Shown here: positions 1 to 34,857 of the stretch, piece after piece
Position numbering within the stretch: position 1 is the stretch's first letter
Layout of the letters: every line of letters begins with the position of its first letter
Origin: Rugalucina vietnamica
Lineage: Eukaryota > Mollusca > Bivalvia > Lucinida > Lucinidae
DNA: 64,000 nucleotides
NCBI GenBank assembly: GCA_964017185.1
Contig: OZ024879.1
Coordinates: 21,951,456 to 22,015,455 of the forward strand
Direction of reading: 5' to 3'
Program-made: the position numbers and the translations under genes
Notes under the pieces: model-generated
Database searches by the model: none
Told to the model about the DNA's origin: nothing
The model's input: the letters and a program-made list of their open reading frames with translations, nothing else

Positions 1-231
1 GCTATTGAAATATTTTGTGAAGAGCGACCAAACTCTGTGCGTACGAATAGACCACTTTTGGAATGCCTATGTGACGAAAATAACCATGCATCCAGCGCGT
101 TATGTCTATTGCCTATAGAAAATGAAAGAGAATTCTTAAAAAATAAGGTTCTAAAGGTACAAACAGAAAATGGCTGGAGAAGGCATTCACTCAAATTTTT
201 TAATAGTATGATTGATGAAAAACTAGATAGG
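1..231 (+). pseudogene. RAG1-like transposase (RAG1L), first segment, cut by window edge and by an insertion
   Basis: The + strand is open from base 1. The translation follows the vertebrate RAG1 core just before its CxxC zinc-binding motif: PNS, then ECLCDENNH (like the RAG1 'LADESDH' stretch), then an IENERE stretch, then MIDEKLDR. In the RAG family this lies between the first and second catalytic Asp of the DDE transposase. The first catalytic Asp and the whole N-terminal region are left of the window. The frame ends at 231, where a 6.3-kb element with target duplication TAGG begins; it resumes in the same frame after the second TAGG (6507-6510), so both parts are one gene. Family assignment rests on motif order and spacing read by eye. 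Confidence 0.85.
228..231 (+). repeat. Target-site duplication TAGG, left copy
   Basis: TAGG directly precedes the inverted repeat that starts AACACCAACCGG. The same TAGG follows the other end. Removing the element and one TAGG joins the RAG1L codons GAT AGG and GCA GAA in frame. Confidence 0.85.
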
Positions 232-495
232 AACACCAACCGGTATTTTTTTGACAAACCGCTTTTCGTCAAAGCTAGGACATCTTTCGAAAGCAGCCAG
301 GGCTTCGCAGTTTGTATATACATGAAGTACCTATCAAGTGGTTCTCTAAAAACTTATTTTGTCTGCCTGTCTTATCTGCAAGTGCCTGAAAAATGGACTA
401 GAAGTTGACTTTCCCATGGGAAAACAGGGGAAAATCATGTTTTCCCATGGGAAATGGCACTTTCCCATGGGAAAACAGGTTGGCCATGGACGAAA
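232..495 (+). repeat. Left long terminal inverted repeat
   Basis: It matches the complement of about 6229-6506. The inner half carries perfect palindromes of the form TTTCCCATGGGAAA. Confidence 0.85.
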
Positions 496-825
496 ACTGG
501 GCCATGGGCAAAACATATTGGCCATGGGAAAAATGAAAAAAAAATCTTATGGTCAATCAGTTATTAAACACAAAATTATAATCATTGTTGCTTTGGCCAT
601 AATGGCCACGTATATATTTTGCAGTTATAACTATGTGAAAAAAATAACATTTGGGCCATGGCCGACTAAAAATGGCCATGGCCAGATTTGCCCATGGCCG
701 ACAAAAAGTGGCCATGGCCATTGTGGTTTTGCCCATGGACAATTCAAATGCTCCCATGGCCAAGTATTTATGGCCATGGCCATTTTAATCACACTCAAGT
801 GGGCCATGGCCATTTGGATGGACAT
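410..825. repeat. Cluster of CCATGG-centred palindromes, left
   Basis: This stretch has over a dozen CCATGG cores, in two palindrome types: TTTCCCATGGGAAA and GGCCATGGCC. A mirror cluster sits at the other end of the same element. Confidence 0.85.
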
Positions 826-859
826 TCTATGCACCATTGAAAAAGAGAAAAGGTTAAAA

Positions 860-1400
860 ATTATAGAAAAGGCAGGTTAAAAGCATTCGGTAAGACGGAT
901 AGATTATGAAAGGTTAAAAATAGTTAAGCAGCTAAAAAATAATTAAGTAGATGCTAAAATCAGCTTTAACAGCTTGGCGTGTCTCGGGCGTGTGACTTAT
1001 ACGTCCCGATTAACTTGATTAAGTTACAGGTGGTTGAATACACTCTGAACGCACAAGTGTATGTTACATGGGAGGCACGCCAGTGTATGTTACATGTGCG
1101 TTCCGATTTCATTAGATGTTGCTTCAGTAGCTTGCCCTATAAGCGTGTGTGAAACACATGTTGAACTTTCGATGCACGTCTGTAGCGCGTGCTAACAGTT
1201 AGCGTGTCTGGGACTTATCACAACCGTCCTCAAAAACTTGGAGATTTTTTATACGTCCGGCACTCGCCTCAGTCACGGGCTAATGTGTAACTGCTAAAGC
1301 GAGTTAAAAGAAATTAATTTTTATACGTCCAAAGTCTTCAGTGTGTTGAGATTTTTCATACGCCCGGCGCGTGTTTGGGTTATACGCTACTATATGACTG
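860..1400. repeat. Dispersed GC-richer repeat with TATACGTCC motifs
   Basis: Short blocks recur, including TTATACGTCC, GGCGTGTC and TCGCCTCAGTCAC. The segment about 1235-1320 matches the complement of about 63875-63960 at the far end of the window, so this is a dispersed family. No coding potential is seen. Confidence 0.55.
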
Positions 1401-1779
1401 CTGTTTTAGCTAAGGTAGGATAGGGTCCGTCATCTGTCCACCATTTTCACAGATCTTCTCCTTTAAACGTGCTAAAACCACTTTGACAATCAAGGCCATG
1501 TAGCACTTATAGGAAAGGGGAAAGTGTATAAAAATAATCCAGGACAAATGACAAAGGCAATTTCCAGGGCCATATATGGTGAAAACTAAAATCTTCTCCA
1601 GAACCCAAGTCTTATGATCATGAAACTTGTCATGTAGCAGCTGCATCATGGAATACAGAACTAAAATGTGTAAATAAATAATGCACTTTGATGACCAGCC
1701 ATATGAAAATAATCTTCTTCTCTGAAACCACAAGACTCAAAGCTTGTATATTTAGTATGTAGCAATCTTATTTGATGCT

Positions 1780-2160
1780 TTACATACCCCCCCCACCCCC
1801 CCCCCCCCCGATCATGCCCATGTGGTTCAAAATGGTCCCACCCAAGGGGAAATAATCTCCTGTATTTATACTACAATGAAGAAAACAATAATATCCAGAA
1901 ACATTCTCTTAACCGTGAGTTTTTCATATTTTGTGTGAAGCAGTGTGAAGTAATCTTCTTTCTAAATTCTGCCACCCATGCCCCTGGGGTCCAAACAGGC
2001 CAAGCCCAAGAGCCCGGGGTCATTAGCTCCCTTACAAATAAAACTGTCCAGATTATAGGCGAGCGTTTACAGGACCACTGGTCCTCTTGTTTGTGTTTCA
2101 CTATATTTCTGTATTTCTGGTCCAGGCTGGAAATTCCAAAAACAGGATTTTGTATGAAAT
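1780..2160. repeat. Poly-C tract and 'CCTGGGGTC' repeat unit, first copy
   Basis: A C-rich run at about 1787-1810 is followed by a unit containing TCCTGCC-like and CCTGGGGTC motifs and GGGGTCATTAGCTCC. Related units recur at 3710-4020. Confidence 0.5.
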
Positions 2161-3240
2161 AACACTATAAACCCTGATCTTCCTAATTATCAAGATGTTA
2201 CAGCCCCTTTCACTCGAGATTGCCGTTTGAGCATTTAAATCAATCAAATTTGTTCACTCGAGTTTGCCGTTTGTTTGTAAATCAGGTAACTTTTTATTCT
2301 ATTTTAGAACTGAATCAGTGTCCCGCAGGTGCCAGGTGTTCTTAAAATCTATTCAGCATTTATCTTTAGGTAATGATGTCACCTCTTCTGATAAAAACAT
2401 TGTAATTGCTTGGTTAAAGCACATTTTTATTTCAAAATTCTTTGTACAACATATACAATGCATATTAAGAACACACATTTGTAACAGGATAGAGACAAAA
2501 GCAAAATTTTATCAATTTAAGCAGTTACCTGATCGGTATCTACATGGCAAAAATTCCACATAGGAAGTTAAAAATTTCACTTGAGTTTGCCATTTGTAAA
2601 GGTCATTTAGTTTGAAGCTGTCACTCAAATCAGCAGATCAATCAATCCAGATGTCTTTGAGGACAACATGAAAAGAAACTCGGAACACATGGTCTTCTTG
2701 TGTGATGCAAATGCTCAAACAGCAAACTCGAGTGAAAGGGGCCGTATTGTGATTGACAATGATGATTTGCCATGATGTGTCTGTCATACGTCTTCTGCAT
2801 TTCATAATAAAAGTTAAAACCTTTAATTATTGCAGGTGTAAAGTAATGATCACTGACAGAATTCAGCATGGACTTCAGCTTTTCAATGTGAGAAAAAGAT
2901 CAACATCTAAACCCAACAGATTTGTCCTAATAGAAGAAAGTATATGTATATGGTGGAAAAGAGAAAACAATGTGTTATTGACCATGTTTGCTCCTGAGTT
3001 CTTGCTTGGACTTGAGTCAAGATACAGATTTCTCAACATCTAGATTATTCCAGCTTCTCCGAGATTGAAGACAGCAGAAAAGTGACAAGTGTAATTTTGA
3101 CGATGATATTAGACATGTTTCTTTACACCATGCCTGTTAGTTCATAATGATCTGTTAAGATTCTAGATCTGTCAGAAATTAACAAGTCTTTCTAATAAGC
3201 GCAATACGAGATCTTTGTTAATCCAGTTTTTAACTCAGTA
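2161..3240. other. Non-coding interior of the 6.3-kb element
   Basis: The motif TTCACTCGAGTTTGCC(G)TTTG recurs near 2210, 2255 and 2578, and its complement near 2720. Short open frames here have no recognisable domain. No gene is supported. Confidence 0.5.
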
Positions 3241-3244
3241 AACT

Positions 3245-3600
3245 CACCTGAGCAGAAGGCTCACAGGTTAGCTTATAGGATAGGCTGGCATCCGGCGTCA
3301 GTTGACATCCGTCCACAATTTCAAAGACAAATGAGCCGCCACATGGGAAAACCAACAGAGTCTGCATAGGCGAAAACAAAGGTGCAGATCAGCTTCGCAG
3401 ATACTGCGAAGCTGATCAGCGCCTTTGTTTTCGCAACTCGGATAGTACAATTCCTCTTCTACTTAAATCAGAAATTTCAAGCTTCTAGCTCTTTTCTGTA
3501 CTTGTACAAGTGGGTTTGTGCCAGACCTGTTCGGAAACCACATTGTTGGTTTTCCCGCGAGGCGGCTCAAATATTTCTGAATCAAGCCGGCCGATCTTGA
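3245..3600 (-). repeat. Hairpin-bearing dispersed repeat, copy 1
   Basis: The core is a long hairpin at 3369-3434 with arms GATCAGCTTCGCAG / CTGCGAAGCTGATC, flanked by GCGAAAACAAAGG and its complement. The following 160 bases match, inverted, the copies at about 4360-4545 and 40905-41130, so this is a mobile MITE-like family. Confidence 0.65.
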
Positions 3601-3709
3601 TAAAATTTTATGTGAACCGTCACTGGGTAGGGGGATTGACTGCATTAGGTTTTTGGAGCAGATTGTATCAAAATTGTGGTTTCCATGGCAACAGGTAGCT
3701 CCCATAGAC

Positions 3710-4020
3710 TTACAATGGGAAAAACATAAAAAAAATCACAAGGCCCAGAGCTTCAATATTTTGTATGTAGCAATGTTTGGTAGTCCCCTTCATCAATCCT
3801 GCCAACCATGTACCTGGGGTCCAAATTGACCATGCCCCAGGGATGTCCATGTGTGCTGTAGGCTTATAGTGTGAAAAATCTTCTAACTCTAAAACCACAA
3901 GACTTAGAGCTTGTGTATTTGGCATGTAACAGTGTTTATTGGTACCCTTTATAAATCCTGCCAATCATGACCCTGGGGTCAAAAATGGCCCCACCCTGGG
4001 GTCATTAGCTCCTATAGACT
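3710..4020. repeat. Tandem 'CCTGGGGTC' repeat units
   Basis: Two degenerate units of about 130-150 bp share ATCCTGCCAA.CATG..CCTGGGGTC and a CCCCA tract. They are related to the unit at 1800-2160. Confidence 0.55.
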
Positions 4021-4054
4021 AGCGTATACATGTACCTAATTTTCTTATTTTGGA

Positions 4055-4140
4055 TCCAAAACATACGCTGTGGGTACTTGTTAGACCCGCCTCAACGAGG
4101 CGGTTCTAACATGTACCCACAATGTATGTTTTGAGCAAAA
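4055..4140. repeat. Imperfect inverted repeat (hairpin)
   Basis: The two arms contain GTGGGTAC...GCCTC and GAGGC...GTACCCAC around a short AAC loop, and extend into AAAACATAC / GTATGTTTT. A partial third copy of the arm lies at about 4225-4260. Confidence 0.6.
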
Positions 4141-4359
4141 ACTTTGAAAAAACAGATTTTTCTCAATAAAATTTTTCTATTTTTGCTTCTGTAAAAAACA
4201 TCTGTATATTGCATGGGCAAAAATGTATTGCTCAAAACAGATTGTGGGTACACCTCCATGGAACTGCCTCGGCGAGCAAATATAAGGCACATCTACCCCA
4301 GTTTTGCTATAAAAGTTGTGTATAAGGGATGTATATGGGCTGTGCACAAGAAAACCAGT

Positions 4360-4545
4360 ATTTGGGGTTTCTGACCATATCCGACACAAACCAGAATGTA
4401 CTGTCACAGAAGAAGGCCAGAAGCTTGGATATAAGTAGAAGAAGAATTGTTATATTTTTGTAGCGAAAACAAAGCACCTTTGTTTTTCACATATATGCAA
4501 GATTCAGGTTTTCTCATGACGCGGCTCATATTACATGGACATGTT
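4360..4545 (+). repeat. Hairpin-bearing dispersed repeat, copy 2
   Basis: It contains TTTCTGACCATATCCGACAC, AGAAGAAGAATTGTTATA and GCGAAAACAAAG, shared with the copies at 3245-3600 (inverted) and 40905-41130. The hairpin is shortened here. Confidence 0.55.
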
Positions 4546-4559
4546 ATTCTGATGTTATA

Positions 4560-5940
4560 GCTCACTTGAGCCCTTGTGAGCCTGTTATAGTATGGGCATT
4601 CTCTGGTGTCCATCTCTCATCTGTCAGTTTATCAGTTGTCCACCGTCGATTGTCCACCGTCGTCAACCGTTTGTTGTATAAATGGTCCAGGTTACATGAC
4701 CAAGATGAACGCCACGCCCATGATATGTTAAACCACTTCTCTGGAACCAGCAAACTGACTTTAACGAAACTAAGTATGTAGCATTGGGGACGCTGGTTAA
4801 TCATTGATTAAATTGTGACCTTAGGTTGAACTTGATCTATTTTACAGCAAGATCAGATTTGGTCAGTCACATGCTTTTCAATGGAAACAGTTTGAAACAG
4901 GATTTTTCAGAAAGGTTTATAGCCTGTGACCTGATAGTAGATACTGACAAGTTATTGAGTTAATGAGTTATGTTTAAGGTCAATGTCATTTCCTTACCAT
5001 GGCAAAAAGTAATAAACTAATTGTAATTATTATTTAATTTTCTCTGAAACCATTTGGCCAATCAAGCAACGTTTTAGGTTTCAGAGCTTCCTTTCGAAGG
5101 GGAAACAAAATTTTCTATAAATGGTTAGGTCACATCACCAGGATGGCTGCCATCCCCATAATGGTAAAAACAATGGAAAACAGTTTTTCTTCTCAGGAGC
5201 CAATGAACCGATTTCAGTGAAACTTGTTATGTATTATCAAGCACTCTAGACCATCATAGATGTATAAAGCTGCTAAGTTGACCTTGCCCTGTAAAAAGGT
5301 TTCAGATTTTAATAATTTGGTTGGGTAGCCTGGGCTTTTGATGGGAAAATATGTAAACAATGCATTTTGTCACAAAGATTTTAGCCTGTGACATGTAAAT
5401 TGATAGATATATTAAAGGACAGTTTTTTGTGTTAATGAAATTATGTGAGAATTCAGTTTTATTTTCAAAGACCAAATCTCGGGTGAGCACTCTGTTTTTT
5501 TATATAAAAAAAAGAAGTTTATTAGTTTGAATTATAATCTTGTTTGTATTGCAATTTTGATATTTTTACATGGAGTGTTATTAGGGGCAGCTGTTTGTAT
5601 CTTTTCAGAATTTTGGGATTAAAATGTGCATATGTGATGTGAACTTTTCTCCTTGTTTTTAGTAGCCACTGTTTTTGTCGACAAAATAAATCATTCAATT
5701 TTAATCAATATGAAAATCAAATTTTTGCATTTTTCACTTTTAATCAAGATGAAAACCACATTTTTGCATTTTGTTCTATGATACCATTCAAATGATAAAG
5801 GATCATATAGAGACACACATGAAACTATCCATACATAATAGATTATAAATGTGAACCCAACAGGGTTGCATAATGTGGTGTTTCTTTTTGTAGTTGAGTA
5901 TAGTAGTTAATCAAAAGTTTTATGTTTCAAAATAAGTTAA
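4560..5940. other. AT-rich non-coding interior of the 6.3-kb element
   Basis: No convincing frame is seen. Near 4625-4680 there are repeated TGTCCACCGTCG motifs. Near 5700-5780 a 40-base phrase with TTTTAATCAA(T/G)ATGAAAA is duplicated. Nothing else is supported. Confidence 0.5.
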
Positions 5941-5947
5941 CAATATC

Positions 5948-6312
5948 TTGGCCATGGCCAGTTATATGGACATGAGAAGGGCCATGGGAAGAAAATTATG
6001 GCCATGGGCAAAATTATTGGCCATGGCCCGAAACTTGACCAACTTTGGGCCATGGCCAGAATTTCATTGCCCATGGCCAGAATTTATGCCCATGGCCAAT
6101 ACTTACAAAATTTTAGATTATAATATTTTTGAATTTATAATATCATGGCCTTCATGGGAAGCAATTTTTATGTAGAAATTGATCTCTAAAAACATTTTTT
6201 ATCAACAGTTAAATTTTCCCATGGCCAACGAATTTTCTGGCCATGGCCACTTTTTTGTCCCTTGCCAATCTGTTTTCCCATGGGAAAGGGCCATTTCCCA
6301 TGGGAAAACATG
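5948..6312. repeat. Cluster of CCATGG-centred palindromes, right
   Basis: It repeats the same two palindrome types as 410-825. The GGCCATGGCC part extends inward beyond the clearly matching inverted repeat. Confidence 0.85.
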
Positions 6313-6506
6313 ATTTTCCCATGGGAAAGCCAACTTCAAGTCCATTTTTCAGGCAGTTATAGATAAGATAGGCCAATAAAATAAGTTTTTAGAGAACCAC
6401 TTGATAGGTACTTAATAAGTATATAAACTGCGAAGCCCTGGCTGCTTTCGAAAGATGTCCTGGATTTGACAAAAAGCGGTTTGTCAAAAAAATACCGGTT
6501 GGTGTT
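6229..6506 (-). repeat. Right long terminal inverted repeat
   Basis: This is the inverted partner of 232-495. The short frames across it are translations of the repeat, not genes. Confidence 0.85.
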
Positions 6507-6510
6507 TAGG
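6507..6510 (+). repeat. Target-site duplication TAGG, right copy
   Basis: TAGG directly follows the complement of the left terminus and is the first part of the resumed RAG1L frame. Confidence 0.85.
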
Positions 6511-7482
6511 GCAGAAAGTGGGCTTTCTGGTAGCGGCTCTAAATATTTATGTACCCTGTGTGAGGCCACGAGAGAGACTGCGATAAGTAATCTTGGCACT
6601 TTTACAGTAAGCCGAACTTATGAGGGCACCAAGGAGCTGGCAGAGTATATAAGGATTAATCCTGACAATTTAAGTCGGTCAGCTATTGATAATATATGTA
6701 AAGGTGTGAAAAGAGAACCTCTTCTAAGGGCCTCAGGATTTGACAAAGCTTTAGATGCTACACATGCAGATATAAACATTGGTTCATTTTTTAGAAAGCT
6801 AATAATCAAAGAAATTGCTGGAGTGACCCAATGGGAGGTTACTCAAGACATTAAAAACATTCTTAGGTGTGCGGAGGTCACTTTTGATCGTCATCTCAAA
6901 AGTACCGTTGGGATAAATCCTCAACTGATGATGCCAGGCAATTATGCGCGTTTATTATTTGACGCTAAAAATGAACCCCATATTCTGTCATTGATCAAGA
7001 ACAAAGAAAGGGCAGGTAATTTGGCATTAATCCTGGACAAATTCAGGTTTATCAGAAAGATTTATAGATCGAAAGAACCTGGAAAAGAGTATGCAGATGA
7101 ACTCAAATCATATAAGGTAGTGGCAGTCGAACTAGGGAATATGCTAATTGAGCATTTTGAATATGTCAGCTGGCCAAATTACTTACATAAAGTGATCGAA
7201 CACGTTCAAGAAATAATCGAATGTCCAGAAGGTCCTGGCACGGTAGGTGGTTTGAGTAGTGAAGGGAACGAATGTTGAAATAAGATTTTCCGACATTTCA
7301 GGAAAAATTTTGCCAGGAAAGGTAACACACAAGGTGGTCTGCGTGATGTTTTATTGATTCACTGGCTCTACAGTAGCCCTTTGTTGTCACAAATGGCACA
7401 TATCACACTGAAAGAAAAACGGTGTAATCAATGCTTTCAGATGGGGCATAATACAAGGTCGTGCTTACTGTCCAAAAACTGA
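6507..7482 (+). pseudogene. RAG1-like transposase (RAG1L), C-terminal core and zinc knuckle, one nonsense codon
   Basis: This continues the RAG1L frame after the insertion. It has the zinc-binding CTLC pair of RAG1, then HADI, whose Asp (6769-6771) aligns with the second catalytic Asp. A NPQLMMPGNYAR stretch matches the RAG1 segment around its 'GNFARKLM'. NYLHKVIEHVQEII keeps both zinc-binding His. SEGNE holds the third catalytic Glu (7261-7263). The next codons read EC then TGA (7276-7278), where RAG1 has a Gly. Beyond the stop the same frame stays open to 7482 and encodes NKIFRHFRKNFARK (RAG1 has a matching NKLFRRFRK stretch), IHWLYSS, and a CNQCFQMGHNTRSC zinc knuckle (CX2CX4HX4C). Invertebrate RAG1L proteins carry a comparable C-terminal knuckle. 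It faces the RAG2L gene tail-to-tail. The protein would mediate transposition by RSS-like ends; this copy looks dead. Confidence 0.9.
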
Positions 7483-7625
7483 CATGTCAACAACTTTTCG
7501 GTTGAAATATAGTGCTTGAAATGTCTACAGTGTTAGAAGCAGTGAGCCAAAAGATATTTTGTAATTCGTATTTGCCAAATATGAGAGACAGTTCCTTGCT
7601 ATAGTCAAGGACCGTATATCTTTAA

Positions 7626-7790
7626 GGGGACACCAATCTCAAAATCTTAAACATGTCATAAAAGTTTCATGCTCAAAGGAAAATGGTATAAAAATATGCA
7701 AAGAACTAAAAGTATGTGTTACAAAAGCACAATTTTCCTTTGGGCAGGTGAATTTTGTGACAGGTATTAGATTTTGAGATCGGCGTGCCC
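7626..7790. mobile_element. Short MITE flanked by TTAA
   Basis: The ends are imperfect inverted repeats, GGGGACACCAATCTCAAAATC against the complement of GATTTTGAGATCGGCGTGCCC, flanked by TTAA at 7622-7625 and 7791-7794. There is no reading frame. TTAA flanks are typical of piggyBac-type elements. Confidence 0.6.
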
Positions 7791-7794
7791 TTAA

Positions 7795-9132
7795 AATTTA
7801 TCTGTAATGAGTTTTTTTGCACTTTCCGATGTTTTACGTCCATGGTAAAAAGCCTAGATTATGTCGAGACGGTCATTTTAACCCTACTGCACTGTTTGTG
7901 TTTATAATGGAAGAAAATGCACAGTTCTGTCGTCTTTAAACTGACAATTGTTGTTTTTTTTCTTGAAATATAAGACAAAATTCTTCACGGAGACAAGTAC
8001 CATTCGCGAGAATGGGTCTCGAGTCTATTGCACATCACATGAAATGTACAAACTATCCACCAAGCTACCACGCCCGTTTCTGTAATGATGTGTGATGGTT
8101 TAGTGACATGCCTACTTTGAGTACGAAGCCTATGGGGTGACAGGCATCACTAAATTCTTTCATTTTTGTACGTGTACAGTATGTATATGATGAATGCCTC
8201 GGTCATGCTGGGTACCAGATCCCAGGGGGAGGGGGTACTCTGAATAGTGCCATATACGTAGACTCGACCAATTTTCATTTTCCAAGTTTTGGGTGTTTTA
8301 AGAAAAACATTTTAAATGTTTTGGGGGCATGGAAATTTTGCAGATATATTTTGGGGTTACCTCAAAAATCAACTATTTTATGGGTTATTATTTAAAAAGT
8401 CACATATATTATTTGGTATCCATGAATTACATTATTACTTTAGGTGGCTCCTCAGACCAGATTCTGTTCGGGGCGGGTGAGGGGGCGAAGGGGGTACGGA
8501 GCAGATGCAGTCAAAGCCTAAGTATAAGCAAAAATTCAGAGTACCATCTCCCTTGGATTTAGATTTTGTCACCATACAGCTCCTATATTGTATATTCGTT
8601 AAAACATTTCCGTTTAAACTTAGATTGCAGCAGTTGCTAGTTTTATCACATTTACTTCTAAGAAAGAATTTCTTTGCTTCAAGATATCAATTTTTACTTG
8701 AAAACCAAGGTTCAGATAAGCAATCACAAGGGACTGTTTCAATTTCAACCAAAGAAGAAAATATACAAACAGAACATACTGCCAAGCAGCTCTTTCCCGA
8801 AAGGGACTATTTACGTGCCTTATTTTAACTAAATAGTTTTGTCATACATAAGGTGCCAACACTGCCCATTCTACTGGCTGTTTCTCCGCCTTGCGTTTTA
8901 TGTGGCACTTTGAATAATGCACTGGCTTCAGTCTAAACATTAAAGAAGAAAAAATATGTTTTATGACTTTTAGAACACATGTACCACACATAAATCATAA
9001 TGGAAAACACGGCGAGTAGCTATTGAATAAAGGGGCCACAATACAGTAATTTGGTAGAGTACATCTGCAAACAACCGATCAACAGTCCATTTTAAAGAAC
9101 ACGTGGGTCTCAGAATTGTCATCAGAACCTAT
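7795..9132. other. Spacer between RAG1L and RAG2L
   Basis: This is the 3' side of both RAG-like genes. It is AT-rich with a G-rich stretch near 8215-8235. A 107-codon + strand frame at 8505-8828 has no recognisable domain and is probably chance. No gene is supported. Confidence 0.5.
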
Positions 9133-10428
9133 CTATCGTTTTCTTTTTCTGCTTACAGTAGGTCGGCAGTCGGGGCAGACATATTTCCCCCTTGGTACTC
9201 CCTTGTCGAGTAAGCCAACACAAAACTGATGAAGCCAGCGATGGCAAGTTGATTCGCACTGCACCCAAGCAATTGGTGAAATTTCCGGTGAATCAGTAAT
9301 TTTACACTTGTCAGCAAGATCGCAAGCCGTTGGCCTTAATGCTTTTGTAGTATATACGAAGAAATTTTCCGCCACACCACCAACTACCATCAAACAATCG
9401 TCTGCAAGCGCTATTGAAGAATTTCCCGCTGTTGCAAATGAACTATCTATTTCTATGATCTCACTTGATTTACTTTCCGTGTCGAATTTTATGATGTTAT
9501 TATTTAACAAGGGCTTCCCTGCGATGTGTTTTTCTGCTTGAACAAAGCCACCGACTATCTACAGGGACGTTTTGATAACGATACTGCTGTGGTACGATAT
9601 GTATATGGGTTTTGTCATTTCAAATTTAATCTTATCCAAGCTAAAATGGTTATTGCTAATGTCAACAGCTTTCAAAAGTATACATTCGTCGACACAAATC
9701 CTTTCTGATGGACAATTGTTTGAGACTATTATTCCACCAATGAATGCAACGCATAAATTACCAGCTAAAATACAAGACGTTGGAGTATGGTAAGTCCGTG
9801 GTTGTATGTCGGGAACATTCGTTAATTTTATCCATGTCAGCGATGATATTTCTAATATGTAGAATGACCCATCATTACATACTTGTGAAAATGGCGATGC
9901 CAACCCAACGACGTTTCTTGTCTGCATTGATAATCCTCCAAACAGTAGCAGCTTCTCATCAGATAATTTATTCAAAGTATGGCCTGAACGCCCGTTTGGC
10001 ACATCTCCTTTTTGTACGTGTCCGCTTTCATTGCCAACATTTGTCTGAACTAATGTGCACTGATACTTTTTTCCACTCTCTCTCGTTTTTTTAAGAAGAA
10101 AAAACTCATCAGTTGTGTCTATCCGCTCTGTATTAAGTCCTCCCCAAACTAAAACCTTCTTTTGAATAACGCATGCTGCTGCAGACTGCAAACATGAGAA
10201 TCTTGACCCAATTGTGTCGCACTGTGTTATATCAGTAATAGTGACATCATCGGCTTCACAGAAGTAAGTAATTTCAAAGAGAGAACTTGCAACCTTCCAA
10301 GAAGACTCTTCCGTTCGACGTGCACCACCGAAGTATAAAAGTTTTCTATAACTACCTGTATCGTCTTCAACATTTTCGGAAAGCAAATGGAGACTACAAT
10401 GACCCTCTGGGGGGGGGAAAGTCTCCAT
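9133..10428 (-). pseudogene. RAG2-like gene (RAG2L): kelch propeller plus PHD finger, one in-frame stop
   Basis: The frame from ATG at 10428 to the stop at 9133 has 431 codons and is interrupted only by TAG at 9559-9561. It reads as kelch repeats with GG signatures: LLYFGG, LVWGG, LLLFGG, AFIGG, IVGG across the TAG, and MVVGG. GDVPNGRSGHTLN matches the RAG2 phrase around its 'GDVPEARYGHS'. The C-terminal 60 residues form a PHD-type finger: C-x5-C, then WVQCESTCHRWLHQFC, then VCPDC, followed by a basic tail RKRKR. Kelch plus PHD is the RAG2 architecture. RAG2 partners RAG1 in the transposase/recombinase; the PHD binds histone H3 tails in vertebrates. A run of nine C at the N-terminus could be a splice acceptor or an indel site, so the start is uncertain. 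Confidence 0.85.
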
Positions 10429-10436
10429 TCTTTAAG

Positions 10437-10761
10437 TTTAATTCAGTTCGCTTCCTTGTCGCTTTTCCCTTCTCAAGCGATTTTGATTTAAACGGCAAGC
10501 ATCGCCACATTGTCCCAGATACAGTCTCAGGAATCTTTGCAACTGTTTCTTATATATTATACATCAAACTGTAAACCTGAAACAATAATATATATCGACA
10601 AATAACAATTAATGTGGAAACAAATCAACCGCCATAAAGCAGAAAGTGGATGACTGAGGAAATGTACGTGTAATAAACAAAGACATCACAAACGTTCTTC
10701 CGTTCTATTAGGCGATGGGTCGTCCCTAAGAAAATACCTTAACAGTTTCTAAAAATTAGTG
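10437..10761. other. RAG2L upstream region; possible right end of the RAG-like transposon
   Basis: RAG-like transposons end in CAC-type inverted repeats (CACTATG in amphioxus ProtoRAG). Read on the - strand, CACTAATTTTTAG starts at 10761 and is the only similar candidate I saw between the RAG2L start and the SINE at 11.2 kb. The partner end lies outside the window, so this cannot be tested here. Confidence 0.2.
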
Positions 10762-11204: not shown

Positions 11205-11420
11205 GTTATTTGCGTGGCCTGGTGGTAGACCGTCGCATTTCTGAGCCAGAAGCCAGGATTCGATCCTCACGACCTGTCTCTCCGGATTTAGTCCTTGGGC
11301 AAGGTACATTAAGTTTACTTACCACAGTATTAATTAAATACATGATTCAAACGATGGCTTCGTCTCGACATGACTGAAAAAATCTTGACGGAGATGTAAG
11401 GCCTTAACATAGAATGAGTA
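11205..11420 (+). mobile_element. tRNA-derived SINE
   Basis: The head has an A box-like GTGGCCTGGTGGTAGA and a B box-like GGATTCGATCCT in tRNA order and spacing. A body follows with CTTGGGCAAGGTAC. The 3' limit is uncertain. Confidence 0.65.
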
Positions 11421-11519: not shown

Positions 11520-11830
11520 AAAGCAAAAAAAAAAAAAAAACAAAACAACAACAACAACACTCACAGACTAAACTCCATCTTTTCTTTTCAAAATGTGTAG
11601 TTAATGCCGCTGTGAATAAATTTGTTGTCGTGGTGTGAAGCGTTTTACCGGTAAGTTGTTGGTCCGTAAATTGATTGTTTCTATTCTATTCTATTCTACA
11701 CGGTATAAAACACATAACCAATACAAGTACGCATGCGCTGAGAAATGCAATTGTAAACATCCGTGAGGAGCAAAGGCAAATAGGAAAACGTTGTTAGTGC
11801 CGTGGTCAGGGCGGAGCGGAAATGTGTTTT
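11520..11830. other. Low-complexity and non-coding spacer
   Basis: It holds an A17-type run with CAA repeats at about 11525-11560 and a short CTATT tandem at about 11676-11697. No gene is seen. Confidence 0.5.
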
Positions 11831-23990: not shown

Positions 23991-24059
23991 CTGTCAGTCA
24001 CTTACCATTGATTATTACTACAATCTGTTTTGTTCATGACCTCTGTTTCCTGGTGATAA

Positions 24060-24580
24060 ATATTGTCATGCTCTTGTATAAGTTCATTATTCCCATTTCC
24101 TTGTCTAAGTTCAATATCTTAATTTCCTTGCATCAGTTCATTATTATCATTTCCTGGTATCAGCTCATTATTGTCATTTCCTTGTATCGTTCACTTTTCT
24201 TATTTTTATCACTCCATTAATCTCATTTTCTTGTATCACTTCATTTATCTCGTTTTCTTGTATCAGTTGATTGTTCTCGATTCCTTGTATCAGTTCACAA
24301 TTCTCATTTTCTTTAATCATTCCATTTATCTCATTTCCTTCTTCATGATTCTCTTTTTCTTTCACCAGTTCATTATTGTCATTTCCTTGTATCAGTTCAC
24401 TATTCTCATTAATCTCATTTCCTTGTATTAGTTCGTTATTCTCATTTTCTTTTATCATTCCAGTAATCTCATTTTCTTCTATCAGTTCACCATTCTCATT
24501 TTCTTTTATCATTCCATTTATCTCATTTCCTTGTATCAGTTCATTTTTCTCGTTTTCTTTTATCAGTTCATTATGGTAAT
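24060..24580 (-). repeat. Minisatellite encoding an ELIQGNEIN-type repeat
   Basis: Units of about 27 bp in a 54-bp higher order repeat in one frame on the - strand: ELIQGNEIN / GMIKENENN with variants, about 15 units. It continues the frame of the transposase relic to its right, so it expanded within or beside that coding sequence. Confidence 0.8.
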
Positions 24581-25484
24581 TATGGTCCATTATTACGAGA
24601 ATTAGTTTTGCTTTGCAAGTTAACTGTTTCCCATCGATTGTAAGTTGAATTCCATCTACATAAAACATGTTCAAGTCTTGCACCAGTGGTTTAAGATACA
24701 TGGTCATATTATTAAATTTTGGTTTACCTACACCCTGCAAAACTCCCAAAAGTATCATCTTTTTTTCGCAGAAAACGTTGCTTTCTTGGTGTTTCATTCA
24801 CTTACAGATAAACTGGCCATATAGATACAACCGAACTTTTAAACAGGGGTTTAAAAGGGTTTACTCCATCAGTAAACAAGGATAATGTTATATTGTTACT
24901 ATCTTCAAGAAACTGTCCACTTTCTTTCAAAGCCTGATATTCAGTTCCATAGTAATATCTGTAATTGATTTAGTAGAGACCTTTGATTGTTCTTGGATGG
25001 ATTGCCAAATATTTTGTCATAAGAGATCATCGGAAAGCTGCTTTTCAATATTGCTTGTTACAAAATAATTCTCTGTAAGTTCTTGGTTACATATGTACCA
25101 CTGCAACCATTTGTTTGACTTTGATCAATGTCTTCATCAAACAATCTTTTACAAATGCTGCAGTAAAAATTAAAATTTCAAAAAGTCCTTGAAAATCCAC
25201 AAACTGGCTTGACTTTATCAATGTCTGTTTCCATTATATTGTTTGCTGGAACATGAAGATTAAAAAAAGCTTTGAATTGTGTGTCTGAACAGTTGTGTCG
25301 GGATATATAGGCACATACTGCCAAAAGTTGTTCCTTGTAGTTCAGTGGTGATTCATATAAACCATCAGAACCCTGAATTACGTATAATGAAGCATCATTA
25401 GATATTTCCATTCTTCCAGTTTTATATTTAACTTCTGTCCCATCCGAATCATAAAATGAAACTTCTGTATCTGAATCAGAAATA
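24581..25484 (-). pseudogene. EnSpm/CACTA-like transposase relic A
   Basis: Reading on the - strand from 25484: DSDTEVSFYDSDG, then NYKEQLLAVCAYISRHNCS, a CSICKRLFDED zinc-finger-like stretch, GTEYQALKESGQFLED, TDGVNPFKPLFKSS with SIWPVYLSVNE, and MILLGVLQGVGKP. This is the order found in metazoan 'transposase domain' proteins of the EnSpm type, where '(T)DG..LFKSS....WPVY' is the hallmark. Several frame shifts and stops lie between segments (about 25030, 24920, 24800). Its upstream side abuts the LINE-B RT fragment at 25485, so the N-terminal end is lost. Confidence 0.65.
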
Positions 25485-26283: not shown

Positions 26284-28284
26284 AAAAAAAGGTACAAGTA
26301 GGCAAAGATCAAGAAAAGGCGCACTCAGAGAAAGATTCCCACTCCAAAAACCGAGGTGGGAAAAAACCAAAGTAACAATCAGGTACTTATACCATAAAAA
26401 CATTTCGTAAGCCGTATGAGCAGCTATTTTCCCAATAGGTGGCCACTCAGTTACCTTAACTTAACCAAAATACGAAAACATACATAAGGCGCCAACAGCA
26501 CAAAATAATTTAAACACCAAGACATGAAACAAAAAGAACCACCACAGAAGTATCGACTTGGAACGATCAGTAACACAAAGTTACTTGCGGGTTTAAATCG
26601 ATTTTACATGGCCATAACCTCACCCTCAGCTTCTGCAGTGGTTCATAACATTTAGTAAGCTCTTCGGTCCTCGTGGCGAATCTCTAACTAGTCAATGAAT
26701 CATCAAGAACAAACAAATAAATCATGATAAACATCCTGATGAATCAAATACCAGGACACACAGATTAAGTAAGCTGCCCGACGATGGAGATCCCTGGGCG
26801 CCGAATAACTTACCAACTCCGGAGCAAAAGAAAAACATCAGTTGGACCCCGCTGGGCCAAGCAACAGACAAAAAGTTCCGGCCCCAACCAACTAAAATGA
26901 ATAGCTTTAAGTCGGGGCCATCATAGAGTCTGACGCCCGACCCACCGGCGTGCAATTTAAGAAGGCAGCATAGTTATCAACCGTGATTGGGTTAAAAACT
27001 AAGCATGCAGACTGTCGCATAACATTCAAGTTATAACCTATACGTCTGTAACGTGTAATGATTTTTCTAAACTGAAAAGAAAAATCATTACTTCCTATAA
27101 GTTTCTTAAATTTGTAAACCGAGTCACCATAAAATTCTGGTTCCCAAAGGCCCTCACTTAGAGCGTCTTTAACCCAACATTATATTTGGAAATCAATTCA
27201 TAGTGTCTACGGTAAAATTTAGAAAAGGTTTTTCGAAGTTTATGGTACCGATAGCCCTGTTGGAGAAGTTTGGCCGTTAAACATTTATTTCGAGCGTTGA
27301 AGTCTGTAACATGATTGCAGACTCTAGCAAACCTAATAAGTTGCGAAATGTATACACCATAAGAAGCACGACGAGGAACGTCACCATCCAAAAACGGAAA
27401 ATGTACTATATCAAAATCAAAGTCATCGCGCTTATCATAAATTTTAGAAGAAACAAATCCATTTGCAACAGAAAGATGTAGATCTAAAAAGGGGCCTTCG
27501 GTATCCGAGATATTGGCTTTGTTCAACTGTAGTTCAGATGGATAAATTTGATTGACCATACCTTCAAAATAAGGGTTGTCAATGTTCAAAAGGTCATCGA
27601 GGTACCTAGAAGTGGAATTAAAAGCCTCGATAACATCAGCTTGATTATCATGGTTAAGAGAATCCATGAAATCTCTTTCGAAGCAGTATAAAAATAAATC
27701 AGCAACGAGAGGTGCGCAATTTGTACCCATCGGAATTCCAACAATTTGTCTGTATAACTTGGTCCCAAATCTAATATAAATATTATCCAGGAGATAGGAT
27801 AAGGCATCGCACACATTCTGACATGACCAAAGTGTATATCGACTTTGGTCAGAGGAAGTGAAAAAAGTTTTTCTGTCATTACATGCCAAATAAAGTGAAC
27901 CATAGTTTTTTTAATGCCCTTTTGAATGTCCACTCTATCAAATCCGGAAGTTTTTCTTTAATTAGATTATGTGGTAAAGTTGTATATAGAGTAGAAAAAT
28001 CATATGTGGACAAGCTCGTCGCACGGAACCCTCTACACTTCAATTTATTGAGCACCTCACCAGAATTTTTTATTGACCAAAACCAATTTTTATTTGAAGT
28101 TTCATACACTGTCTCACAGTATCTTATAACATGAGATTTGATAGCAGTAAGACAGGAAGTTAATAATTTAGAAAGTTCAGTAGTAGTACAAGAGCTAGAA
28201 TTTGCAATAAATCTAGCTTTGTATGGTCTTTTGTGAAGCTTAGGTAACCAATACATCGTAGGAAGTTTGTCTTGGCCTTCATTG
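26284..28284 (-). mobile_element. 5'-truncated Penelope-like retroelement
   Basis: It is inserted in LINE-B between codons for RIQL and DTLTPPIY; joining 28285 and 26283 restores that frame. Its coding part is on the - strand, about 28284-26920. The 3'-UTR, 26284-26720, is the source of the dispersed fragments at 16.0, 17.2 and possibly 63.8 kb. Confidence 0.8.
26920..28284 (-). pseudogene. Penelope-type reverse transcriptase (partial)
   Basis: The frame begins within the RT: TMYWLPKLHKRPYKARFI, DFSTLYTTLPH (palm Asp), GIPMGTNCAPLVADLFLY, and SRYLDDLL as the catalytic box, then FLDLHLS. These are Penelope-like RT motifs; LINE RTs have different phrasing around GTNCAP. A frame change near 27885 separates the first motifs from the rest. 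Another near 27160 shifts into LSEGLWEPEF and a C-terminal LVFNPITVDNYAAF tail. No GIY-YIG endonuclease is seen after the RT. The N-terminal half is missing. Confidence 0.8.
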
Positions 28285-29037: not shown

Positions 29038-29209
29038 TTTGTTTGTTTGTTTGTTGTTTAACGACGCATCAACCCTGATGGGTCATTAGCGTCTAACAAG
29101 GTAAAACATTAAAATATATTGAACTCGTATTAAAAAGTAACACTAAATAAGATATAAATTTCGTTGTAAAGAAACGATATATGAAATGTTAAGATTGAAG
29201 ATTTAAAAA

Positions 29210-32200
29210 TTATATTTTATAAAACAGATTTACTTGTCTAAGAAATGATAAAATCTTTCCAACGGGTACATCTTTGAACAATTCTTTCAAGTTGTTAGCT
29301 TGAAAACAAGAAATTCGCTCTGCTGCAAAGTCAGTGCATTCTAAAAGAAAGTGTTTAACTGTGAATGGTGTATCACAGCCAATGCATTTAGGTTCATCTT
29401 CTCGCTTTAATAAGTGGGAATGTGTTATTCTTGTATGACCAATTCGGAGACGAGCAAGAACGATTTCTTCTCGTCTCGAAAGTTTATGAATTGCTTTTGG
29501 TCGTTTAACGATCGGTTCGACTTCCCTCAATTTATCAAACTTCGCTCCGTTCCAGATTGTTTGCCATTTGTCAGAGATGTACTCGTTAATAAAAGGTTTA
29601 AAATTGACATAAGGAATTTTAAAAACTGTTTCTTCTAGATTTAACGATTCTTTAGCGTTCTTATCAACTTTCTCATTTCCATATATACCTATATGACTGG
29701 GAACCCAGCAATAGATAATTGTTTTCAATTCCGAGATGGTGTGATGTTTTATTAATAGTTTTTGTATTTGAGGGTTTTTGGATGATGTATGGTTTAAGGC
29801 CTGTAAAACTGACATAGAGTCAGAAAAAATAATAAATTTGTCCTTTAAGTTACTTTCATTTATGAAGTCTAAAGCTAAGTCTATAGCTTTAGCTTCCGCT
29901 GTGAAAATTGAAGAGCCATCAGGTAAACGTAATGTTTTGCAATTGCCGTTTGTAAAAGTAGCACAACCAACTTTGTTTTCTTCTTTTGAACCATCAGTAT
30001 AAATACATTGATAGTCAATAAATTGAGATTGTAGTTGATGAAAACTTTCTTTTAGAAGGTGTGGATTTGAGTCGGATTTTTTCCCTGTATGTAGAGTCAA
30101 ATTAACTTCTGGTTTTCTAATGCACCATGATGGTATTTCGGAAACAAAATGTTCTTCTATTTTATCTTTTTGGATGTTTGCTGATTCTAAAAGTGGTGCA
30201 ACCCGTAAACCAAAGGACCGGATAGCCCTTGGTTTACTTTCGTAAAGCTGTACGACTTCTTCAGAAATATATGGCGGAAAAGACACCTTATGAACTGGAT
30301 TTGATGGATTAGCAGCAATTCTAATGGCGTACTGTAGGGCAAGTTTCTCTCGTCGTAAATATAGAGATGGCTCTTCAGCCTCAACATAGAGGCTTTGTAC
30401 AGGTGATGTTCGAAAAGCACCCAGAGCTAATCTTAGGCCTTGATGATGCACTGTGTCAAGAGAACTGATATATGATGGTCTTGCCGATCCATATACGATG
30501 GATCCATAATCTAATTTTGAACGAATGAGGGAACGGTATAGCTGGAGAAGGACAGTGCGATCAGCACCCCAGTCTGTGTGTGATAATACTTTCAGTAAGT
30601 TTAATGCTTTTAGGCACTTGGCCTTTAAGTACTTGATATGTGGTATGAAAGAAAGTTTACGATCAAAAAGAACTCCAAGAAATTTAAAATCTTCAACTAC
30701 TGGAATAAGAGACCCATATAAATAAAGTTCAGGATCGTTGTGTACTTTCCGTAATTGACAGAAATGCACACATTGTGTTTTCGACTTGGAAAATTTGAAA
30801 CCATTATGTGAGGCCCAGTTTTCTATTCTGTTAATGCACTGCTGTAAGTGCCTCTCGATAGTTCTCATACTTTTTGACCTGTAACACATACAGAAATCAT
30901 CTACATATAAGGATCCATCTGTTTTAGGATCCAGACAGTTCATTATGCTGTTTATCTTAATATTGAACAAAGTTGTAGACAAGATGCTACCTTGTGGAAC
31001 ACCCTGTGCTTGATCAAACTTTTCGGATAAAGTCGATCCAACACGAACCTGGATCCAACGATCCGCAAGGAAATTTTCAATAAATGTAGCTAATCTGCCT
31101 CGTATTCCGAGATCATGTAGATCTCGCATAATACCATGTCTCCATGTGGTATCATAAGCTTTTTCCAAGTCGAAAAACACAGCAACAACATGCTCCTTTG
31201 CAACAAAGGCATCACGAATAAAGGTTTCCAGTCTAATTAAATTGTCGTTGGTACTTCGTTCAGAACGGAAGCCCGACTGAACAGGAGATATTAGGTTATT
31301 ACTTTCTAAGTACCATACAAGTCTTACATTTATCATTCTCTCTAAGGTTTTGCAAAGACAACTTGTAAGTGCTATCGGTCTATAGCTGTTCGGTTCTGCA
31401 TGATCTTTTCCAGGTTTAGGAATTGGTATTATAGTGGCTAGTTCCCAACTTTCGGGAAACTTTCCAGTTTCCCACATATCATTAAAAATATCTAAGAGAG
31501 CCTGAAGTGATTTTGGTGGAAGATGTTTTAACATTTGATAGTGAACTTCGTCGGGACCTGTTGCTGTATCATGGGCTTTACTGATAGCGTCTTTTAGTTC
31601 ATCTAAATTAAATGGAGAATTATATTCTTCATTATTTGAGGACTTAAAGTTTAATTTAGTCTTTTCCTGTTCTTTCTTGTATTTTTGAAATTCCTCCGAA
31701 TAATGACTGGTTGAGGAATTTGAACAAAATTGTGATGCCAAAGTATCTGCTATATCTTGTTTTGTGGAAGCTGTTTCGTTCGCATTGTTGAAGTTGTAAT
31801 TAAGATGATGATAAGTAGCAGATTTAGATTTACCGGATATTTTCCTAACCATGTCCCAAACTTTTTTAGTCGGTGTTTTATAATTCAAATTAGATACGTA
31901 TGTTCTCCATGATTTGCGTTTTGCAGACTTTATAGTCCGACGGGCTTTTGCTCTAGAATTCCTATAAGTATTTAAATTTTCATGCGTTGGGAACTTGCAG
32001 AACTTCAACAAAGTGTCTTTTCGTTGTTTGATAGCCTCTTTACAATCGTCATTGTACCATGGGTTACTTTTCTTTGGGTTTGTCGAGGTTTTGGGGATAC
32101 ATTTCTCAGAAATAGTTATTAAAGAAGAAGTAAAGTAAGTTATAGGATCAGAAGAATCAGACAGAGTAGTATCAGTAAGGGACTCATTACATAAGGTATG

Positions 32201-32908
32201 AAATAAATCCCAATTTGCTTTATGTAATTTCCATTTGGGGTTATGGGCTTCATCATGAGTCCGAACGCTTTCAATCAAAATTGGAAAGTGGTCAGATCCA
32301 CGTTGATCTTCACAAACAGACCAGTCATAGTCAAGATAGAGAGAGGGGTGACAGAGTGAAAGATCAAGAGATGAGAAAGTGCCTTTACCAGAATCTAGAT
32401 AAGTGTTCGATTTATCATTCATCAAACAAATGTCGTTTTTCGTGATGAAATCCTCGATTAATTCTCCTCTGGGATCATTGTCATTACAACCCCAAAGCAC
32501 ATTATGACCATTGAAGTCACCTACTAACATATAGGGTGAAGGAAGCTGTTCAAGTAAAGAAGTCAGTTGTTCAGATCTTAAAAGATAAGAGGGAGGGATA
32601 TAGATTGAGCAGAAAGTTATCTCTTTCTCGAGTGTAACGGAAACAGCTACCGCTTGTAGATCCGTTTTAAGTTTAATTTGACGTTGTGGTAATGTTGAAT
32701 GGACAAGTAAAGATGCTCTTAGACAATCCAAGTGAATGTGATTGTAAACATTAAAGCCTTTCAAAGTAAACGTGTCATTAGGTTTGAGGAAAGTTTCTTG
32801 TAGACAGAAAACAGAAGGTCTAAGTAGTGACAAAAGAAGTAGTAGTTCTTCAAAACGTGGTTTTACACCTCGACAGTTCCATTGTATTATTGTATATTTG
32901 CTACCCAT
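29210..32908 (-). CDS. I-clade ORF2: endonuclease, reverse transcriptase, RNase H
   Basis: There are 1232 codons without a stop. The N-terminal APE-type endonuclease has QWNCRG, LQETFL, GDFNGHN and GSDHFPI. The RT (about residues 490-760) has FFDLEKAYDTTW, GVPQGSILS and LYVDDF, then LGVLFDRKLSF. The RNase H (about 980-1120) has YTDGSK, TAEAKA, FSDSMS and GNEKVDKNAK, giving all four acidic positions plus the His-containing WVPSHIG. A CX2C...HX4C finger, CIGCDTPFTVKHFLLEC, lies near the C-terminus. Relative to copy 2 it lacks four residues (GGSS) in the endonuclease near residue 65. It starts 63 bases after ORF1 ends. The protein would nick target DNA and prime reverse transcription. Confidence 0.93.
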   Translation of the reverse strand: MGSKYTIIQWNCRGVKPRFEELLLLLSLLRPSVFCLQETFLKPNDTFTLKGFNVYNHIHLDCLRASLLVHSTLPQRQIKLKTDLQAVAVSVTLEKEITFCSIYIPPSYLLRSEQLTSLLEQLPSPYMLVGDFNGHNVLWGCNDNDPRGELIEDFITKNDICLMNDKSNTYLDSGKGTFSSLDLSLCHPSLYLDYDWSVCEDQRGSDHFPILIESVRTHDEAHNPKWKLHKANWDLFHTLCNESLTDTTLSDSSDPITYFTSSLITISEKCIPKTSTNPKKSNPWYNDDCKEAIKQRKDTLLKFCKFPTHENLNTYRNSRAKARRTIKSAKRKSWRTYVSNLNYKTPTKKVWDMVRKISGKSKSATYHHLNYNFNNANETASTKQDIADTLASQFCSNSSTSHYSEEFQKYKKEQEKTKLNFKSSNNEEYNSPFNLDELKDAISKAHDTATGPDEVHYQMLKHLPPKSLQALLDIFNDMWETGKFPESWELATIIPIPKPGKDHAEPNSYRPIALTSCLCKTLERMINVRLVWYLESNNLISPVQSGFRSERSTNDNLIRLETFIRDAFVAKEHVVAVFFDLEKAYDTTWRHGIMRDLHDLGIRGRLATFIENFLADRWIQVRVGSTLSEKFDQAQGVPQGSILSTTLFNIKINSIMNCLDPKTDGSLYVDDFCMCYRSKSMRTIERHLQQCINRIENWASHNGFKFSKSKTQCVHFCQLRKVHNDPELYLYGSLIPVVEDFKFLGVLFDRKLSFIPHIKYLKAKCLKALNLLKVLSHTDWGADRTVLLQLYRSLIRSKLDYGSIVYGSARPSYISSLDTVHHQGLRLALGAFRTSPVQSLYVEAEEPSLYLRREKLALQYAIRIAANPSNPVHKVSFPPYISEEVVQLYESKPRAIRSFGLRVAPLLESANIQKDKIEEHFVSEIPSWCIRKPEVNLTLHTGKKSDSNPHLLKESFHQLQSQFIDYQCIYTDGSKEENKVGCATFTNGNCKTLRLPDGSSIFTAEAKAIDLALDFINESNLKDKFIIFSDSMSVLQALNHTSSKNPQIQKLLIKHHTISELKTIIYCWVPSHIGIYGNEKVDKNAKESLNLEETVFKIPYVNFKPFINEYISDKWQTIWNGAKFDKLREVEPIVKRPKAIHKLSRREEIVLARLRIGHTRITHSHLLKREDEPKCIGCDTPFTVKHFLLECTDFAAERISCFQANNLKELFKDVPVGKILSFLRQVNLFYKI

Positions 32909-32970
32909 TAAATAATTTAGAGAGGAGATTTAAATGCGTGACCTTTCGTTTAAATGTAGACTGAAAACTT

Positions 32971-34194
32971 CTACTTTGGAGCTGTGATTGGTGACCGAGG
33001 ACGATGGCCACGGGAACCAGGGCGCGAGGCAACCTCGTCCATCTCCATGGCATCGTCATTAGCCAGAGCTCCAAATTTGTTATACTGTTGGACGGGATCA
33101 TCTGATCCCTTCTGCACCCTACTGGATGCAGAATGTGGTTTTGCGTTTGTACTCGGTTGATTTGGTTTTGAACTAACTTTTGCTTGTTCTGACAGAGATT
33201 TGCTTGATGTTACGTTCTGATTTTGAGAAATATTGTTTCTGTTTGGTTTCCTCGCAATGAGAACTTTTGAACTCTCTGTAATCTTACAGTCTTCGACACT
33301 GTATTGTGTAGCAGCTGTTTTGGTTTCTGGTTTGGCAGCAAGTGATTTGACTATATGTGAGAAACTAAATTCAGGCTTCTGTTCAAGTTGTTTTCGAGCT
33401 TCAAGATATGTCAAGTTCTTTGTTATCTTCAATCGCATGATTTCTTTTTCCTTCTTCCATGTTTCGCATTCATTTGATCGTGATAGATGTGCTCCGCCAC
33501 AGTTGACACATTTTGTGGGGTTTTTGCAGTGATTTGTATGATGGTCATGGTTTCCCATACCACATCTTTCACAGACTGACCCGGGGTCAACTGGGCATTT
33601 GTCCTCATGGTGTCCAAACTTCTGACAGTTAAAACATCTCAAAGGGTTAGGTATGTATATGTCAACAGGTACAATTTGATAGAAAATTTTGACTGCTTTT
33701 GGTGGGACGACTGAGTTGAAAGTAAGTAGCAAAGTATTGGTGTTGATGGTTTCCTGTCCTTTCTTAACGGTAAAACGTTTAACTGCCGTTACACCTTGAT
33801 TTTCTAAATATTCCAGGATGTTCTTTTCTGACTCTCCTTTGAGGTTTCTGTCTCTGATAATGCCTTTCGAAGAATTCAAAGATTTGTGCGGGTTCACTTC
33901 TACTGATAGGTTAAAGAACTTTTTTGTTTTCAATAAGATGTCCGTTTGCATTTTTCGTGTTGTTTCCACAAGCAACATTCCATTTTTTAATTTCTTGACG
34001 GATTTTGGCGTACCTATCATGCTTTCTATCTGCTTTTCAATGACAAATGGTGACAGTGACGTAACTGGTGTTTCTTTAATAGTTGATTCAATGAGTAAAA
34101 ACTTTGGAAAAGTGTCTTGTGCTCTAAACAGTGTCGAAGCGTCTATATCATCGTCGGAATCCGGTCGTTGTCGTTTGTTATTTAAGGAAGCCAT
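32971..34194 (-). CDS. I-clade ORF1: gag-like nucleic-acid-binding protein
   Basis: The 407-codon frame has three CCHC-type zinc knuckles at about residues 190-245: CFNCQKFGHHEDKC, CERCGMGNHDHHTNHC and CVNCGGAHLSRSNEC. The N-terminal half has an RRM-like charged region; the C-terminal third is Ser/Gln/Asn-rich. Such proteins coat the element RNA. It is 83% or so similar in length and order to copy 2 ORF1 by eye, with no break. Confidence 0.92.
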   Translation of the reverse strand: MASLNNKRQRPDSDDDIDASTLFRAQDTFPKFLLIESTIKETPVTSLSPFVIEKQIESMIGTPKSVKKLKNGMLLVETTRKMQTDILLKTKKFFNLSVEVNPHKSLNSSKGIIRDRNLKGESEKNILEYLENQGVTAVKRFTVKKGQETINTNTLLLTFNSVVPPKAVKIFYQIVPVDIYIPNPLRCFNCQKFGHHEDKCPVDPGSVCERCGMGNHDHHTNHCKNPTKCVNCGGAHLSRSNECETWKKEKEIMRLKITKNLTYLEARKQLEQKPEFSFSHIVKSLAAKPETKTAATQYSVEDCKITESSKVLIARKPNRNNISQNQNVTSSKSLSEQAKVSSKPNQPSTNAKPHSASSRVQKGSDDPVQQYNKFGALANDDAMEMDEVASRPGSRGHRPRSPITAPK

Positions 34195-34802: not shown

Positions 34803-34845
34803 GAGGGAGCGACCGGCCTATTCTAATCCGGGTCCGGTACGGGCC

Positions 34846-34857
34846 GCAAGGTCGTGA
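34846..34857 (+). repeat. Target-site duplication GCAAGGTCGTGA, right copy
   Basis: Exact repeat of 29026-29037. Confidence 0.9.

Follow-up and report, generated by a model that had tools for sequence, protein, structure and literature searches.

A probable fossil RAG-like transposon with convergent RAG1L and RAG2L genes, each interrupted by a stop codon

The window analysed here, a stretch of 64,000 nucleotides (64 kb) of contig OZ024879.1, begins within a pair of RAG-like (RAGL) genes, RAG1L and RAG2L, whose natural stop codons face each other (Table 1). For the RAG1L pieces and the main RAG2L piece, the amphioxus ProtoRAG proteins were the best matches among solved structures, with E-values down to 1.4e-67 for RAG1L and of 1.4e-24 for RAG2L. 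A preliminary description of this DNA had proposed the remnant of a RAG-like transposon with the two genes tail to tail, and both the gene identities and the layout were borne out. Its status as a remnant held as well; there is an in-frame stop codon in each gene and a 6.3-kb insertion in RAG1L.

On the + strand, RAG1L consists of three collinear pieces, which start at about mouse residue 637 and reach the C-terminus, and all three had amphioxus RAG1L (6b40_A) as their best match. The first piece matched it at 6.6e-19 (phmmer) and also aligned to mouse RAG1 residues 638-711, the main piece matched it at 1.4e-67, followed by vertebrate RAG1 chains (1.5e-30 to 3.3e-28), and the C-terminal piece (7279-7479) matched it at 1.4e-08. 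When compared with the Pfam RAG1 profile, which has a curated cut-off of 25 bits, the main piece scored far over the cut-off (4.6e-32, 111.4 bits), while the first (3.7e-05, 22.5 bits) and the last (1.2e-04, 20.8 bits) were just below it. The motif words listed in the preliminary description (CTLC, HADI, PGNYAR, NYLHKVIEH and SEGNE) were all found. The two segments it had assigned to RAG1L, 1-231 and 6507-7482, do belong to this gene, but it had overlooked that 232-6506 is a separate inserted element.

The catalytic residues of mouse RAG1 are D600, E662, D708 and E962, and the equivalent of D600 would lie to the left of the window. The residues aligned to the other three are E, D and E, respectively, and the position of mouse E649 is occupied by V and that of R848 by M. 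Residues of the V/M kind at these two positions have been linked to uncoupled cleavage and transposition (Martin et al. 2020, PMC7204232). The CTT* tail motif Cx2Cx3GHx4C, as defined in the same source, occurs once, as CNQCFQMGHNTRSC. Identity to amphioxus RAG1L was 114/248 (46%) for the main piece and 175/362 (48%) for all three pieces, compared to 80/244 (33%) between the main piece and zebrafish RAG1. The kinship with the V(D)J recombinase ancestor that had been suggested stands in a general sense, but the main piece is nearer to ProtoRAG, which is a RAGL_B element, than to zebrafish RAG1. On the same comparison, the element probably belongs to the RAGL_B subfamily.

On the opposite strand, the 290 residues of RAG2L ahead of its in-frame stop (10431-9559) matched amphioxus RAG2L (6b40_M) at 1.4e-24, with 35% identity over the aligned parts, and the next rows were zebrafish RAG2 (0.0065) and KLHDC2 (0.01). 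Six kelch GG motifs are spread across the frame, matching six kelch blades. Two of them lie past the stop, in the piece 9555-9136, together with a C-terminal PHD finger, so that the kelch repeats and PHD finger previously assigned to this strand were recovered. The invertebrate RAG2L PHD spacing, Cx4-7Cx14-16Cx2-4Cx4Hx2Cx11-18Cx2C (PMC7204232), was present once, and the vertebrate spacing was not found. Between the last GG motif and the PHD finger only 1 of 20 residues is acidic, indicating that there is no acidic hinge.

The element nested in RAG1L is bounded by terminal inverted repeats (TIRs). The complementarity of its arms (232-424 and 6314-6506) is 91% across 193 nt, with 17 mismatches, and 86% when the arms are followed inward for about 300 nt. 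The outer limits fall at exactly 232 and 6506. The insertion site, which is flanked by a 4-bp target site duplication (TSD), is five codons beyond the D708-aligned codon (214-216), and the reading phase of RAG1L is kept across the element after discounting one TAGG. No transposase domain was detected within it: 18 of the 19 wholly internal open reading frames (ORFs) of at least 70 amino acids had no Pfam match (E 0.01), and the remaining one matched a chemoreceptor family below threshold (E 0.0053; 16.8 bits, cut-off 23.8), which is taken as chance among 19 scans. The nested element is probably non-autonomous, because none of these 19 ORFs gave a transposase match. Its ends are also dense in short palindromes around CCATGG, such as GGCCATGGCC and TTTCCCATGGGAAA, with 14 CCATGG sites in 414-809 and 12 in 5952-6324.

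The in-frame stop codons, one in each gene, had been missed when the two frames were first identified. No frameshifts were seen in about 2.5 kb of RAG1L and RAG2L frames. A selenocysteine reading of the RAG1L TGA was considered and rejected, as a search of 7279-9200 with E-values up to 1 gave no selenocysteine insertion sequence (SECIS) match. We infer that this copy is dead, because the predicted RAG1L frame (1-408) ends inside the nested element, and RAG2L is truncated before its fifth GG motif, losing the last two of its six GG motifs together with the PHD finger.

In the intergenic stretch, a 175-nt self-complementary hairpin (7621-7795) is flanked by TTAA on both sides and resembles a miniature inverted-repeat transposable element. 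Candidate microRNA genes at 7620-7796 (nine family rows, all under their gathering scores) were rejected and are read as this same hairpin.

Table 1. Features of the RAGL locus, with positions numbered from the first letter of the window
Feature	Position	Strand	Basis or remarks
RAG1L 5' visible piece	1-231	+	Frame open at window edge; holds positions aligned to mouse E649, E662 and D708
TAGG, left copy of the nested element's 4-bp TSD	228-231	+	Script
Nested TIR element, 6.3 kb, splitting RAG1L	232-6506	.	Arms, TSD
TAGG, right copy of the nested element's 4-bp TSD	6507-6510	+	Script
RAG1L main piece	6508-7275	+	CTLC zinc ligands, DATHAD, GNYAR, YLHKVIEH zinc ligands, SEGNE with catalytic E (E962 position)
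RAG1L in-frame TGA	7276-7278	+	Second codon past the catalytic glutamate codon (7270-7272)
RAG1L C-terminus with CTT* zinc motif and natural stop (7480-7482)	7279-7482	+	6b40_A; motif test
Intergenic stretch between RAG1L and RAG2L stop codons	7483-9132	.	1650 bp
RAG2L frame, ATG 10428-10426 to TAG 9135-9133	9133-10428	-	6b40_M match; Pfam Kelch_4 1.9e-06, PHD 2e-06
RAG2L in-frame TAG	9561-9559	-	Just before fifth GG motif
Candidate RAGL 3' TIR end, 5'-CACTAACAACGTTTTCC	11783-11799	-	Protostome consensus minus one A

The right boundary of the RAGL element had been placed at 10761. This position matches the protostome TIR consensus CACTWMCAAACKTYKBB (PMC7204232) at only 7 of its 17 positions and was rejected in favour of a better candidate ending at 11799. 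The latter site is at an edit distance of 1 from the consensus and is the sole one-edit match on both strands of the 64-kb window. By chance, 0.0075 such matches were obtained per 5.57 kb downstream of RAG2L on one strand (400 simulated stretches), and 0.1 per window when both strands of 10 simulated windows were counted. The CCGTG next to this site (11800-11804) is the putative 5-bp TSD, with its partner end outside the window. If this boundary is true, the left end should be a CAC-starting TIR matching CACTAACAA..., with CCGTG before it. The fit of the candidate to the protostome consensus also agrees with a mollusc-like host.

The locus is best read as the fossil of a cut-and-paste DNA transposon that was RAG-like, probably of RAGL_B type, in the genome of an animal, probably a protostome. 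We would give this reading a probability of roughly 93%. Membership of this transposon group is well supported by the gene content and layout, while the ends fall short of full proof: transposon status is drawn from the gene pair and one candidate end, because the left TIR, the RAG1L N-terminus (zinc fingers, ZDD and NBD) and the partner of the 5-bp TSD of the RAGL element would all lie to the left of position 1. A scan of viral contigs with the main RAG1L piece gave 8 pattern matches, none of which was confirmed by tblastn, and a PHROGs search returned a single row at E 0.13.

Apart from the features that lie out of view, several other observations count against a fossil transposon. No further RAGL remnants or copies were found in the 64-kb window. 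Only 2 nonsense changes were observed, compared to the 4.6-6.0 expected from an arm divergence of 7 to 9%, an expectation that assumes the arms of the nested element to have been identical at insertion. One stop per gene and no frameshift amount to light decay for an old fossil, but this is weak evidence because the arms may have already differed when the element was inserted. The 11799 site scores 15/17 when ungapped, which was equalled by the best of 200 shuffles, and its rarity depends on allowing a one-base edit in a test that was framed post hoc, after the site was spotted. Finally, the preliminary description would have been overturned if kelch/PHD or DDE families unrelated to RAG had given the best matches. 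This was not the outcome for the RAG1L pieces or the main kelch piece; the PHD-bearing last piece of RAG2L alone best matched the KDM5B and KDM5A PHD fingers in the PDB, with no RAG2 among the best 60 of 81 matches. As amphioxus RAG2L has no PHD finger (PMC7204232), it could not have matched this piece.

Alternatively, the locus may be a domesticated RAGL pair with a host function, seen here as a broken allele or with the stops and the insert being assembly or allelic artefacts. The frames are otherwise intact, there are fewer stops than a neutral guess would give, and protostome RAG1L-RAG2L pairs without detectable TIRs are known (PMC7204232). However, the two stops, a 6.3-kb insertion between catalytic residues and a plausible TIR end at 11799 make domestication unlikely, and it is partly compatible with a fossil transposon, as a once-domesticated pair may now be dead. 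Far less probable is that RAG1L is a working gene, with the DNA at 232-6506 as an intron. The preserved reading phase would suit an intron, but the insert ends in inverted repeats (AACACC...GGTGTT) and is flanked by a TAGG duplication, and the junction has no GT...AG.

A Transib transposase that happens to lie beside an unrelated kelch/PHD host gene has to be considered too, since RAG1 and Transib share a common ancestor (PMC9435367) and the PHD piece alone best matches KDM5B. Against this, the matches of the main RAG1L piece to chains of RAG1L and vertebrate RAG1 have E-values from 1.4e-67 to 3.3e-28. Transib (6pqn) was not found with this piece up to E 1, appearing only at 0.73 with the C-terminal piece. 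The main RAG2L piece is likewise far closer to amphioxus RAG2L than to zebrafish RAG2 or KLHDC2, and the PHD finger has the published invertebrate RAG2L pattern, so that such a chance neighbourhood can practically be dismissed. A DDE core is common to RAG1 and Transib.

The fossil transposon could also be viewed through its host. It is conceivable, though doubtful, that the host belongs to a lineage from which no linked RAG1L-RAG2L pair has yet been described, such as a bivalve outside Pteriomorphia, and that the light decay reflects a recent RAGL arrival with live copies elsewhere in the genome. The main text of the Mercenaria genome paper (PMC8905726) does not contain RAG, RAG1, Transib or 'recombination activating'.

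In the ancestor of this copy, the intact RAG1L would have acted as a DDE endonuclease/transposase, and the intact RAG2L as its cofactor, with a kelch propeller and a PHD finger that reads histones. Together they would have cut at CAC-ended terminal repeats and inserted the element with 5-bp duplications. In the ProtoRAG/RAG systems, RAG1L cuts beside CAC at both ends, assisted by RAG2L, and insertion produces 5-bp duplications, while the sea urchin RAG2L PHD finger binds methylated H3K4 (PMC7204232). The present copy would have been disabled by the TIR element, which splits RAG1L just beyond the D708-aligned codon, and by the stop codon in each gene.

Other features were observed elsewhere in the window. 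A SECIS_1 element (26865-26932, - strand; 39.1 bits against a gathering score of 35) is the single SECIS match at threshold in the window, and lies about 230 bp downstream of an ORF at 27158-27910 on the same strand. By its motifs, this ORF looks like a Penelope-type reverse transcriptase. It had no Pfam match at 0.001, and a literature search pairing Penelope-like elements with SECIS or selenoprotein gave no link among the matches listed. Two similar copies of a non-long terminal repeat (non-LTR) retrotransposon (29038-34847 and 43040-49785) are in opposite orientation, with arms 81-99% alike. One of them may have been recently active, because it has an unbroken frame of 1239 amino acids, with endonuclease, reverse transcriptase and RNase H-like domains. 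A stretch at 11210-11290 resembles a short interspersed nuclear element derived from a transfer RNA (tRNA), with A-box-like and B-box-like words, and no tRNA was found in the 64-kb window by ARAGORN. A repeat array at 24031-24640, with 15 overlapping copies at mostly 27-bp spacing, overlaps an ORF for a repetitive protein (24174-24797, - strand).

The transposon that gave rise to the V(D)J recombinase has its nearest living record in the RAGL elements. Both degenerate and intact RAG1L-RAG2L pairs have been published from oysters, mussels, a ribbon worm and cnidarians (PMC7204232), a later survey found RAG1L or RAG2L homologues in 173 species (PMC9435367), and the same spread among phyla is reported in PMC8355894 and PMC9885083. 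The present copy leaves this picture unchanged. With its PHD finger and CTT* motif, it adds evidence that ProtoRAG-like elements were widespread in animals, and it illustrates such an element dying through point mutation and nested insertion.

Judging by their published description, the closest counterparts of this copy are the RAGL_B transposons of the bivalves Crassostrea virginica and Pinctada imbricata, together with the RAGL pairs reported from mussels and from other oysters (PMC7204232). It shares with protostome RAGL the convergent RAG1L and RAG2L genes, the CTT* motif, the invertebrate PHD pattern, the lack of an acidic hinge, the V/M signature residues and, at the candidate right end, a TIR-like sequence, and degenerate copies with stop codons also occur among them. 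The present copy differs in being split by a nested TIR element and cut off by the window edge. Compared to amphioxus ProtoRAG (PDB 6b40), the best match of all three RAG1L pieces and the main RAG2L piece, it has 48% identity in RAG1L and 35% in RAG2L over the aligned parts, and its RAG2L has a PHD finger whereas that of ProtoRAG does not. With vertebrate RAG1 and RAG2 it shares a six-bladed kelch RAG2 and those catalytic and zinc residues of the RAG1 core that fall within the window. However, main-piece identity to zebrafish RAG1 is only 33%, and the copy has the CTT* motif, no acidic hinge and another PHD spacing. Transib elements belong to the same DDE superfamily (PMC9435367), but they have no RAG2L gene (PMC9435367), and a Transib match was obtained with only one of the three RAG1L pieces, at an E-value of 0.73.

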